From positions 1 through 15,448 of the forward strand of contig JAHIOK010000024.1 in the NCBI GenBank assembly GCA_018895315.1: a stretch of DNA of 15,448 bases, read 5' to 3'. Each line of letters starts with the position of its first letter. The stretch's first letter is position 1. The DNA comes from Actinomycetota bacterium (GTDB taxonomy: Bacteria > Actinomycetota > Actinomycetes > Actinomycetales > Microbacteriaceae). Below are positions 8,380 to 11,743 of this stretch, in pieces. Both the position numbers and the translations under genes were made by a program. Below the pieces are notes generated by a model. That model was not told the origin of the DNA. It ran no database searches and saw only the letters and a list, made by a program, of their open reading frames with translations.

Positions 8380-8991
8380 TCACTGTGTAACGGGCGACGG
8401 CACGGGGAGTGTGCGCGGCCGCCAGGATTCTCGACGCGCTTCGTAGGCGGCGATTCTGCCTTCGTTCCTCAAGGTCAACCCGATGTCGTCGAGTCCCTCG
8501 AGGAGGCGCCACCTAGTGTAATCGTCGATCTCGAAAGGCACTCGGATCTTGCCGAGCGTCGCGGTACGCGCCTCGAGGTCGACCGTCATCTGCACGCCGG
8601 GCTGAGCCTCGATGGCGGCCCACAGCCGTTCGACATCTGCCTCGGAGACGATACCCGTGACGAGGCCCTGCTTGCCCGCATTGCCGCGGAAGATGTCGGC
8701 GAACTTGGGGCTCAGCACGACGGCGAAGCCGAAATCACGCAGCGCCCAGACAGCATGCTCGCGGCTCGAGCCGGTACCGAAATCGGGTCCGGCCACCAGG
8801 ATGCTGGCGCCGGCGTAGGCCGGCTGGTTCAGCACGAACTCGGGATCCTGCCGCCAGTTGGCGAACAGGGCGTCCTCGAAGCCGGTCTTCGTGACGCGCT
8901 TGAGGTAGACCGCAGGGATGATCTGATCCGTGTCGACGGCGGAGCGGACCAGCGGCGCGGCGATTCCGGTGTGAGTGGAGAAGGCATCCAT
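8380..8991 (-). CDS. leuD: 3-isopropylmalate dehydratase small subunit
   Basis: LeuD carries the swivel domain of the isopropylmalate isomerase. With LeuC it converts 2-isopropylmalate to 3-isopropylmalate in leucine synthesis. The protein has 203 residues, the usual length. It begins [14 protein letters not shown], then has [15 protein letters not shown], the substrate-binding [17 protein letters not shown] and [17 protein letters not shown]. The ATG at 8991 is chosen because it starts the family N-terminus and has GGAG 7 nt upstream; the longer open frame back to 9378 lies inside leuC. The leuC stop is 2 nt upstream (TGACCATG arrangement), so the two subunits are coupled. Confidence 0.97.
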
Positions 8992-8993
8992 GG

Positions 8994-10472
8994 TCAGGCT
9001 CCGATCTTCGAGATGGCGGGCAGGTCGCTCGGGCTCGACAGCGTGCCGCGCACCGCGGTCGCGGCAGCGACCAGCGGTGACACCAGATGCGTGCGTCCAC
9101 CCTTGCCCTGGCGCCCCTCGAAGTTGCGGTTCGAGGTCGATGCGCAGCGCTCCCCCGGGGCGAGCTGGTCGGGATTCATGCCCAGACACATCGAGCACCC
9201 GGCGAAACGCCACTCGGCGCCGAAATCGGTGAACACCTTGTCGAGTCCTTCGGCTTCGGCTTCGAGACGCACACGCGCGGAACCCGGAACAACCATGACC
9301 CGCACGTGTTCGGCCTTCGTGCGTCCCTGAATCACCGAGGCGAACGCACGGAGGTCTTCGATACGGCTGTTCGTGCACGAGCCCATGAAGACGGCATCCA
9401 CGGCCACGTCCTTCAGCGGTGTGCCCGCCGTCAGATCCATGTATTCCAGGGCGCGTTCTGCGGCTGCACGCTCGTTCGGGTCGGCGAAGGCCGTCGGGTC
9501 GGGAACGACATCGCTCAGCGACACACCCTGACCGGGGTTGGTGCCCCAGGTGACGAAAGGTTCGAGCTCGTTCGCGTCGACGAAGACCTCAGCGTCGTAG
9601 ACCGCGCCTTCGTCGCTGGGCAGAGTGCGCCAGTAGGCGACCGCGTCGTCCCAGTCCTGGCCCTGCGGCGCGTGGTCACGGCCCTTGACGTACGCGAACG
9701 TCGTCTCATCGGGGGCCACCATTCCCGCACGGGCTCCCGCCTCGATCGACATGTTGCACATCGTCATGCGGCCCTCCATGGAGAGCGCGCGGATCGCGCT
9801 GCCGCGGAACTCGAGCACATAGCCCTGACCGCCGCTGGCGCCGATTTTGGCGATGATCGCCAGGATGACGTCTTTGGCGGTGACGCCGGGTTTCAACTCG
9901 CCCTCCACGGTGATCGCCATGGTCTTGAAGGGCTTCAGCGGAAGGGTCTGGGTGGCGAGGACGTGTTCCACCTCACTCGTGCCGATGCCGAAGGCCATCG
10001 CCCCGAAGGCTCCATGCGTGCTCGTGTGGGAGTCGCCGCAGACGACGGTGATACCCGGCATCGTGAGTCCGAGCTGGGGGCCCACGACGTGGACGATGCC
10101 CTGCTCCTTGTCACCCAGGGAGTGCAGGCGCACGCCGAACTCGGCGGCGTTGCGCCGCAGCGTTTCGATCTGGGTGCGGCTCGTCAGATCGGCGATCGGC
10201 TTGTCGATCTCGAGGGTGGGGGTGTTGTGGTCCTCGGTCGCGATGGTCAGGTCGAGGCGTCGCACGGGGCGACCCTCCGCACGAAGACCGTCGAAAGCCT
10301 GCGGGCTCGTGACCTCGTGCACGAGGTGCAGATCGATGTAGATGAGGTCGGGCTCACCGCCCTCGCCCTTGACGACCAGGTGGTCGTCCCACACCTTCTC
10401 GGCGAGCGTGCGAGGACGCTCGGGGATCGATGCGATCTCGCCGCCGATGGGATCAGAAACTGTAGTGCTCAT
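8994..10472 (-). CDS. leuC: 3-isopropylmalate dehydratase large subunit
   Basis: LeuC is the aconitase-type [4Fe-4S] catalytic subunit of isopropylmalate isomerase. The protein has 492 residues. The three cluster cysteines are Cys366 (in FMGSCTNSR), Cys426 and Cys429 (in [12 protein letters not shown]), with the spacing normal for the family. The substrate and cluster-side motifs ATEDHNTPT (79-87) and [15 protein letters not shown] (143-157) are present. It is the first structural gene of the leu-mur operon, preceded by a leucine leader peptide and hairpin. The ATG at 10472 follows AGGAGAA with a rather long gap of 10-12 nt, and that Shine-Dalgarno is complementary to the Leu codons of the leader. 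Confidence 0.97.
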
Positions 10473-10482
10473 TGCTCAGTCG

Positions 10483-10489
10483 TTCTCCT
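10483..10489 (-). promoter_or_regulatory. leuC Shine-Dalgarno, complementary to leader Leu codons
   Basis: Minus-strand AGGAGAA lies 10 nt before the leuC ATG. It is the exact reverse complement of TTCTCCT at 10565-10571, which spans the CTT-CTC-CTT leucine codons of the leader peptide. It can also pair with an adjacent TTCTCC at 10490-10495 as a tight local hairpin. Both pairings would hide the ribosome-binding site. Confidence 0.55.
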
Positions 10490-10519
10490 GGAGAAGAGGA
10501 TCAAGCCCGTGACGAAACT

Positions 10520-10558
10520 CCGCGACGAGGGAGGCCTGGGAACTAGGACTCGTCGCGG
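10520..10558 (-). promoter_or_regulatory. Leucine attenuator hairpin upstream of leuC
   Basis: On the minus strand CCGCGACGAG (10558-10549) and CTCGTCGCGG (10529-10520) form a perfect 10-bp stem, with a 19-nt loop that contains the leader stop codon. The 5' arm begins six bases after the last Leu codon, so a ribosome stalled on those codons would cover it and prevent folding. The 3' arm is followed by AGTTTCG, only a poor U-tract, so the hairpin could act as a terminator of the U-poor actinobacterial kind or as a spacer that brings the Leu codons to the leuC Shine-Dalgarno. Confidence 0.6.
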
Positions 10559-10587
10559 CCGCTAAGGAGAAGACGAGCGATCCGCAT
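10543..10587 (-). CDS. leuL: Leucine operon leader peptide (14 aa)
   Basis: A short ORF encodes MRIARLLLSGRDES. Three consecutive leucines (CTT, CTC, CTT at 10572-10564) sit just before the attenuator hairpin, whose 5' arm is its Gly-Arg-Asp-Glu codons. Its ATG is exactly six bases after a TATTCT -10 box, so the leader is probably translated from a leaderless mRNA starting at the A. The stop TAG lies in the hairpin loop, 70 nt before leuC. The leader senses charged tRNA-Leu: when leucine is scarce, ribosomes should stall on the Leu codons and alter downstream folding. The peptide itself probably has no other role. The placement, Leu run, promoter spacing and downstream hairpin agree with each other, but no expression evidence is available from sequence. 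Confidence 0.78.
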   Translation of the reverse strand: MRIARLLLSGRDES

Positions 10588-10593
10588 CCCGCC

Positions 10594-10599
10594 AGAATA
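10594..10599 (-). promoter_or_regulatory. -10 box of the leu operon
   Basis: Minus-strand TATTCT is the best TANNNT match in the TerC-leuC gap and ends six bases before the leader ATG. No convincing -35 was found at 17-18 bp. It would drive the leader, leuC, leuD, murA, plsC, gpsA and ddl, since I see no comparable box at the internal gene junctions. Confidence 0.6.
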
Positions 10600-10648
10600 C
10601 CACCGCAGCATCGGGCTCGTGATTCGCGGCTGCTCCTCGTCCTCCGTG

Positions 10649-11743
10649 TCAGTGCTCGTCGGGAGCCGGCGGCTGCGCGATCGTCGGCGGGGCGCCCTTC
10701 TCCTCTGCGACGACGGATGCCGCAGCAGTGGGGGTGGAGGATGCGACTGCGGGGACGCCCGCTCGCTTGTCGCGCGACGATGCGATCAGGCTCGCGATCG
10801 TGGCGACCGCCATCGAGGCCACGATGACGCCCAGCGACATCCAGGTGCTGATCTCGGGGGCCCAGTCGATGTGCTGTCCATTGTTGATGAAGGGCAGTTC
10901 GTTGACGTGCATCGCGTGGAAGACGAGCTTCAGCCCGATGAACGCAAGGATGAACGCGATGCCGTAGTGGAGGTAACGCAGACGATCGAGCAGGTCTCCG
11001 AGCAGGAAGTAAAGCTGACGCAGGCCCATCAGAGCGAAGATGTTCGCCGTGAACACGATGAAGGGGCTCTGCGTGATGCCGAAGATCGCAGGGATCGAGT
11101 CGATCGCGAACAGCAGGTCGGTCACTCCGATGGCGGCGAAGACGATGAGCATCGGCGTGAAGATCTTCTTGCCGTTGACGACTGTGCGGAGCTTCGGTCC
11201 GTCGTAGTCGTCGCTGATGTCGACTGTGCGGCGCAGCATCCGCACGACGAAGTTCTCCTTCTTGACCTCGTCGTCGTGGTCGCCGCCGGGGAAGGCCTGC
11301 CGGTACGCGGTCCAGACGAGGAAGGCTCCGAACACGTAGAAGATCGGGCTGAAGTTCTCGATGACCGCCGCGCCCACGAGGATGAACAGTCCACGCAGCA
11401 CCAGGGCGATGATGATGCCCACCATCAGCACTTCCTGCTGATATCTGCGAGGCACGGCGAACTGGCTCATGATCAGGACGAAGACGAACAGGTTGTCGAT
11501 CGACAGGCTGTATTCGGTGAGCCAGCCGGCGACGAATTGTCCGGCGTACTCACCACCCGCGAAGATCCACATGAGTCCCGCGAAGATCAGTGCGAGCGTG
11601 ACGTAGAACACGACCCAGAGCGTGGACTCACGCGTCGAGGGAATGTGCGGCCTCTTGAGGATGAGCAGCAGGTCAGCGGCGAGGATCAGTGTCAGTACGA
11701 CGAGCGAGCCGATTTCGAACCAGAAGGGCAGGTCGAGGTCCAT
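10649..11743 (-). CDS. TerC/Alx family integral membrane protein (probable Mn2+ exporter)
   Basis: TerC/Alx proteins are multi-spanning membrane proteins; characterised members with this kind of leader are linked to manganese export or metallation of exported enzymes. The protein has 364 residues with about eight or nine hydrophobic segments (about 9-29, 41-62, 82-95, 104-128, 132-147, 195-216, 226-248, 260-277, 300-320). The paired acidic family motifs are SIDNLFVFVLI (81-91) and FAIDSIPAIF (212-221); their aspartates are the likely metal ligands. A charged cytoplasmic loop (about 152-193) separates the halves. The C-terminal tail (about 325-364) is Ala/Pro-rich and probably disordered. The start at 11743 has Shine-Dalgarno GAAAGG at a 6-nt gap. 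A probable yybP-ykoY riboswitch lies upstream, supporting a manganese role. It has its own promoter and is separate from the synthetase gene upstream. Confidence 0.92.
   Translation of the reverse strand: MDLDLPFWFEIGSLVVLTLILAADLLLILKRPHIPSTRESTLWVVFYVTLALIFAGLMWIFAGGEYAGQFVAGWLTEYSLSIDNLFVFVLIMSQFAVPRRYQQEVLMVGIIIALVLRGLFILVGAAVIENFSPIFYVFGAFLVWTAYRQAFPGGDHDDEVKKENFVVRMLRRTVDISDDYDGPKLRTVVNGKKIFTPMLIVFAAIGVTDLLFAIDSIPAIFGITQSPFIVFTANIFALMGLRQLYFLLGDLLDRLRYLHYGIAFILAFIGLKLVFHAMHVNELPFINNGQHIDWAPEISTWMSLGVIVASMAVATIASLIASSRDKRAGVPAVASSTPTAAASVVAEEKGAPPTIAQPPAPDEH

Follow-up and report, generated by a model that had tools for sequence, protein, structure and literature searches.

In E. coli, leuL operates by ribosome stalling on codons of the regulated amino acid and acts via a transcription terminator. 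For actinobacteria, an RNA element named LEU was predicted upstream of leuA, which combines a leader with a Leu run, a pseudoknot and a base stem formed between the Leu run and the Shine-Dalgarno (SD) sequence (Seliverstov et al. 2005, PMC1262725). Its usual place is upstream of leuA, and one copy was reported in a transposase gene; the main text of that article names no leuC gene, its 12 words containing 'leuc' being 'leucine' (11) and 'leucyl' (1), and the word 'leaderless' is absent from the main text, too (PMC1262725). As to the mode of action, the article cites work on leuA leader mutations of Streptomyces coelicolor whose effects reportedly do not agree with classical attenuation (Craster 1999, cited in PMC1262725), and its authors thought direct binding of a small molecule unlikely and favoured a protein bound at the LEU element. 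For leuCD, in turn, the protein NdgR and its orthologues are described as adjoining these genes and regulating them (PMC4340878).

Here we analyse an element of the LEU type that lies upstream of leuC in a stretch of 15,448 nucleotides (the window), where a sequence-only reading had proposed a leucine-responsive attenuator. This class of element is already known from leuA, but its placement at leuC and the exchange of the regulator appear to be new: a literature search, weak in that it covered few subscription papers, listed none that assigns an actinobacterial leuC a LEU element or an attenuator responding to leucine.

Architecture of the leuC upstream region

The closest LeuC among the named sequences listed is from Microbacterium (93%), and we read the genus of the window as Microbacterium, family Microbacteriaceae. 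The putative regulated gene, leuC, encodes the large subunit of 3-isopropylmalate dehydratase (8994..10472, minus strand, start ATG at 10472; NCBIfam TIGR00170, 744.5 bits vs a cut-off of 560.25) and is followed in the same direction by leuD for the small subunit (8380..8991, minus strand; TIGR00171, 184.7 bits vs a cut-off of 116.25). A TerC/Alx-family gene (11743-10649) ends upstream of the gap that precedes leuC. Antisense to leuC the window contains an open frame of 492 aa (9087-10565, plus strand), most probably a consequence of high G+C content.

All parts of the element lie on the minus strand, and they as well as their pairing potential were established by computation. A predicted -10 promoter hexamer of the form TAnnnT, TATTCT (10594..10599), is separated by the spacer GGCGGG (10593-10588) from an ATG at 10587, which is also the predicted RNA start. 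The ATG opens a leader ORF of 14 codons, MRIARLLLSGRDES (10543..10587, stop codon TAG at 10545-10543), which contains the Leu codons CTT CTC CTT (10572-10564) and overlaps the 5' arm CCGCGACGAG (10549..10558) of a 10-bp hairpin, all ten bases of which pair with the 3' arm CTCGTCGCGG (10520..10529). Up to this point the sequence-only reading, which had listed TATTCT, six bases, the 14-codon ORF with three Leu codons and a perfect 10-bp stem, was exact. ORFs of 14 codons are below the length limit of usual gene calling and would be missed.

Two further helices, which that reading did not contain, can be formed. The codons Ala4 to Leu8 of the leader (10565..10578) constitute the 5' strand of a predicted base stem whose 3' strand (10474..10489) includes the leuC SD sequence AGGAG (10489-10485). 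In the window this stem has 14 pairs (14/14 between 10565..10578 and 10489-10474) and two one-base bulges, and it is present in the minimum free energy folds of the RNA. Inside the base stem the loop strand CAGGCCU (10532..10538) may pair with the downstream strand GGGCUUG (10502..10508) to form a pseudoknot (7/7 pairs, G-U allowed). The computed structure thus unites a leader with a Leu run, a base stem between Leu run and SD sequence and a pseudoknot inside this stem, i.e. the features of a LEU element, and the SD sequence of leuC is sequestered by the leader RNA in the predicted pairing, as expected for a translational attenuator.

The attenuator hairpin of the sequence-only reading is a conserved stem, but it is not the switch on its own; the likely lock is the longer stem between Leu codons and SD sequence, inside which the pseudoknot lies. 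No U run follows the 10-bp stem (GAGUUUCGUC), and 0 terminator-like sites were found in 10400-10760, by which the stem is ruled out as an intrinsic terminator. Rfam yielded no family at gathering score anywhere in the window, the best weak match in 10440-10660 reaching 14.5 bits vs a cut-off of 34.7, and a simple sigma-70 scan found no promoter.

Conservation of leader and element

The leader is strongly conserved. LLL is found at the same position in the upstream regions of 30/30 genus leuC loci (window included; a stricter first leader pattern had overlooked one of them, L002), and the start codon is kept in all of them, being GTG in 27 and ATG in 3. Covariance model R1, built from 24 of these 30 loci, matches 118/118 genus genomes at E<=1, every best match being 4.7e-12 or better with leuA copies counted, and 188/199 family genomes (E<=0.1). 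A wider model, R2, built from 70 family matches, is found in 248/297 order genomes (E<=0.1) and in 225/246 class genomes (E<=0.01), both draws including some Microbacteriaceae. By comparison of coordinates, an R1 match lies just upstream of leuC in at least 103 of 116 genus loci, the other 13 having no upstream match among the matches listed. These 116 loci come from 119 genomes, of which G118, absent from the R1 search, and G044 and G109, which have no good leuC row, were left out. The count of 103 is too low because G055 was scored via a row of 65% identity, even though contig C55 of this genome carries a leuC fragment with a match just upstream.

In 70 aligned genus and family loci, 9 of which had been picked through leuC, all 70 matches (65 distinct sequences) precede either leuA (44) or leuC (26). 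The window's own genome carries a second copy before leuA (L092, leader MRFGWLLLSCRDESSI). Thus, the emphasis of the sequence-only reading on leuC in preference to leuA needs to be adjusted: the element does lie at leuC, but not in place of the one at leuA.

A permissive test (ATG or GTG near the model start, Leu-x-Leu, 8-30 residues) found a leader ORF in 122/122 leuA and leuC elements, which is in part so by construction, as the rows came from models of such leaders. The longest Leu run comprises 3 or 4 residues in 119/122 elements, and the stop codon lies inside the hairpin loop in 119/122. TAnnnT precedes the leader start by 6 nt in 83 and by 7 nt in 21 of the 122 elements (104/122 together; 6 nt in the window), and the mean distance between -10 element and transcription start site (TSS) reported for Streptomyces lividans is 6.3 nt (PMC8079986), so that the leader is probably leaderless, as had been proposed, i.e. 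the transcript probably begins at the leader's own start codon. CTT makes up 20/304 Leu codons in eight genes of the window, yet CTT occupies codons 6 and 8 of the leader, and at codon 8 it is found in 30/30 genus loci; this is expected if the Leu run doubles as a pairing partner.

Elements resembling LEU were also observed upstream of leuB in further families within the same class (L200-L204, L206, L211, L214, L215, L239), with leuB (3-isopropylmalate dehydrogenase) identified by a profile match in L201 and by eye in the other loci of this type. Their leaders contain mixed branched-chain codons, e.g. MARQLVILSSRGEFR and MRSVLVLIDRRGEA. At two further loci, L209 (checked) and L210 (by eye), a leader with Leu codons is followed by a stem and a T run before leuS, and these resemble leuS attenuators of the terminator type that have been reported from Streptomyces.

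Tests of the predicted structure

Over the 65 distinct elements 99.7% of 650 hairpin cells are paired, in an alignment that had been fitted to the hairpin itself. Two of the ten pairs changed on both sides and 8/10 are invariant; column shuffles reached the paired percentage in 0/500 cases and the number of pairs changed on both sides in 10/500. Controls slid by -3 and -2 columns gave covariation scores of 0.050 and 0.035 vs 0.035 for the native register, but pair only 70% and 42% of cells, respectively. In many relatives a near-copy of the 3' arm (TTCGTCGCGGG) provides a second possible partner for the 5' arm; in the window this repeat is degraded (TTTCGTCACGGG). The conservation of leader and element exceeds chance, the underlying observation is confirmed, and the earlier interpretation as a whole is partly supported.

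Global folding energies do not go beyond dinucleotide shuffles (z +0.72 and z -0.72 in two runs), and we therefore relied on comparative tests, in which helix partners were swapped between loci without regard to relatedness. For the pseudoknot the mean duplex energy is -10.86 in native and -9.28 in swapped combinations (sd 0.16; n=140), with 0/200 permutations as good. This set covers the leuA, leuC and leuB types and derives from 164 matches, from which the leuS-type L209 and L210 were omitted and three rows had no helix, leaving 140 distinct rows; it retains two weak extra matches (in L202 and L211) and, in its averages, a few rows in which the search chose another helix (e.g. L028, L029, L122, L129). 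In many family leuA copies the pseudoknot has only about four contiguous pairs.

The pairing between Leu run and SD sequence was tested by duplex energies since in one clade of alignment A1 the SD sequence appears to be out of place. Native duplexes are more stable than swapped ones both at leuC (mean -13.11 vs -11.78, n=40) and at leuA (-13.25 vs -11.94, n=80), with 0/300 permutations as good in either case, and of the three windows compared, the one with the SD sequence pairs most strongly in 32/40 leuC and 58/80 leuA cases. Of the 140 rows, 13 had no leuA or leuC match nearby and 5 of the remaining 127 had no start; the 122 rows left, identical to those of the leader test, represent 120 distinct pairs (40 leuC, 80 leuA). 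The choice of the start is heuristic, and at least L094, L220, L221, L121 and L277, which look misassigned, were retained.

Distribution of the element and of the NdgR-type gene

Among 48 sampled Microbacteriaceae genera other than that of the window (one genome each, G119-G166), leuC is present in 45, and in 30 of those the element precedes it, 10 of the positives stemming from the first sample and 20 having been added later. In the first sample of 30 family genomes, which favoured genomes having only one model match, 11 of the 29 genomes with leuC carry it. Outside the family the element was found in 0/30 leuC loci; four weak matches, with E between 0.057 and 0.61, lie without exception on the opposite strand. 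Among the loci examined the leuC copy is thus confined to Microbacteriaceae.

The NdgR-type gene shows the opposite pattern. An NdgR-type query with the Pfam domains IclR_C and HTH_IclR has a match in 35/35 outside genomes (E 3.6e-67 to 7.4e-157, one of them being the query's own genome), and in each of the 35 the coordinates of the IclR gene adjoin leuC, in divergent orientation; the name NdgR for these matches is based on position and family. In 198/198 family genomes (20 of them listed) there is no match at E<=1e-30 among up to 13 candidates scored per genome. The positive control comprises 40 genomes in which every candidate was scored, except for G789 from outside the family (69 of 77). 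At E<=3.6e-67 the query is found in 0/5 family genomes, and at 1e-10 G000, G034 and G197 yield nothing, whereas G119 (5.6e-16) and G124 (4.1e-17) yield distant IclR proteins.

The named loci (best 80 of 594) agree with this distribution. In the 34 loci that we count as Microbacteriaceae, the element lies directly before leuC in 22, a cut piece of it far upstream in one more (L347), and the NdgR motif occurs in 0; in the other 46 the element occurs in 0 and the NdgR motif in 40.

Some individual loci may be added. In L347 (Herbiconiux daphne) a piece of the element (positions 1-29), cut by the end of the locus, lies ~670 bases upstream of leuC, and in L270 (G135) an apparently decayed element that has kept TTAGCCGCCGCGACGAG is found upstream of leuC but gives no model match. 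Family loci with leuC but no R2 match upstream are L275, L276, L278-L280, L282-L284, L286, L288-L290, L293, L294 and L296-L298; for these the family-wide NdgR search, in which 20 of 198 genomes are listed, was empty as well.

Discussion

We consider it likely that a LEU-type RNA leader controls translation of leuC, and presumably of leuD, too, in response to leucine supply, and among the mechanisms considered translational attenuation is the best model. Transcription would start at the leader start codon, and a ribosome would thus enter directly at the 5' terminus. When leucyl-tRNA is short, this ribosome would pause on CTT-CTC-CTT and cover the 5' strand of the base stem, the leuC SD sequence would stay free and leuC would be translated. 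When leucine is plentiful, the ribosome would read on to the stop codon within the loop and leave, hairpin and pseudoknot could form, and 10578-10565 would pair with 10489-10474, thereby closing leuC. We infer both the stalling and the leucine response, in which the Leu codons would serve as sensor and lock at the same time. Not in favour of this explanation is that 15/45 family genera have leuC without the element.

A Leu-rich leader peptide beside a strong hairpin might also be expected if leucine acted on transcription, i.e. if the 10-bp hairpin, or a Rho site, stopped transcription before leuC when leucine is plentiful, and by eye the leuS leaders L209 and L210 of relatives are indeed followed by a stem and T run. 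At leuC, however, the stem has neither a U run nor any terminator-like site around it, and the swap tests favour SD pairing and the pseudoknot instead, which renders this mode of action quite improbable. The compact pseudoknotted fold with its base stem could, in turn, be the binding site of a regulatory protein or of leucine as such, the leader ORF being incidental, and the leader-codon mutants of S. coelicolor leuA, reported as inconsistent with classical attenuation (PMC1262725), would fit such a scheme. Yet leader ORF and Leu run are present in all 122 elements, nearly always with the stop codon in the loop, and the leuB copies carry mixed Val/Leu/Ile codons at the same place, which is hard to explain without translation. 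Moreover, recoding the Leu run would disrupt the base stem as well, and this could account for the odd results with the S. coelicolor mutants. We thus regard control by a bound protein or ligand, with an incidental leader ORF, as improbable.

Even less do we expect the leader to be a leaderless mini-ORF whose only role is to supply leuC with ribosomes, or a non-regulatory by-product. Actinomycetes have many leaderless transcripts (17% of the primary TSS in S. lividans, PMC8079986), but the repeated placement at leuA, leuC, leuB and leuS with runs of Leu or branched-chain codons and the SD pairing that matches within each locus make this highly improbable.

In the window's family the element occupies the place beside leuC in which other actinomycetes have an NdgR-type gene, and it has probably replaced that protein control. 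We see even chances that in Microbacteriaceae a self-contained leucine-sensing RNA of ~100 nt was copied from leuA to leuC with loss of the NdgR/LtbR gene, and that it spread separately to leuB, where its codons became Val/Leu/Ile. A tree of 64 family elements, built to date the leuC copy (102 columns kept), leaves 32/61 inner branches open; its starred branches force at least two label changes.

The findings add leuC to leuA as a site of the element predicted in 2005, and they look like a trade in which sister families use either a cis-acting RNA sensor or a regulatory protein. As the Leu codons double as anti-SD sequence, a codon swap should alter sensor and lock together, and since a single genome holds both a leuA and a leuC copy, the mechanism can be tested directly. 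If the scenario of copying and loss is true, a single RNA chassis has been re-tuned through changes of its leader codons, and a protein regulator has been replaced by a repeated element made of RNA and peptide.

Several described systems share features with the leuC element. Among leaders that act via a transcription terminator, the ilvB1 attenuator of Mycobacterium tuberculosis has codon stalling in common with the proposed mechanism, whereas no terminator was found here (PMC13236596). The presumed leuA leader of Corynebacterium glutamicum shares the Leu-run leader, with four consecutive Leu codons, but is located at leuA and was assumed to act by transcriptional attenuation (PMC4046766). In the leaderless polycysteine ORFs of mycobacteria the codons of a short ORF gate a downstream operon, as proposed here, with cysteine instead of leucine (Canestrari 2020, cited in PMC9031893 and PMC13236596). 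At S. coelicolor leuCD, NdgR is bound (PMC4340878). LeuL1 of S. lividans, MRFGLLLLSCRGEGL, is leaderless, has a Leu run and a C-terminus similar to that of the window leader and, like the latter, lacks a typical Rho-independent terminator, but it sits at leuA and not at leuC (PMC8079986). Finally, the LEU element of leuA, with the helices set beside the text description of 2005, has the Leu-run leader, the base stem with the SD sequence and the pseudoknot in common with the window, whose copy differs in being placed before leuC (PMC1262725).
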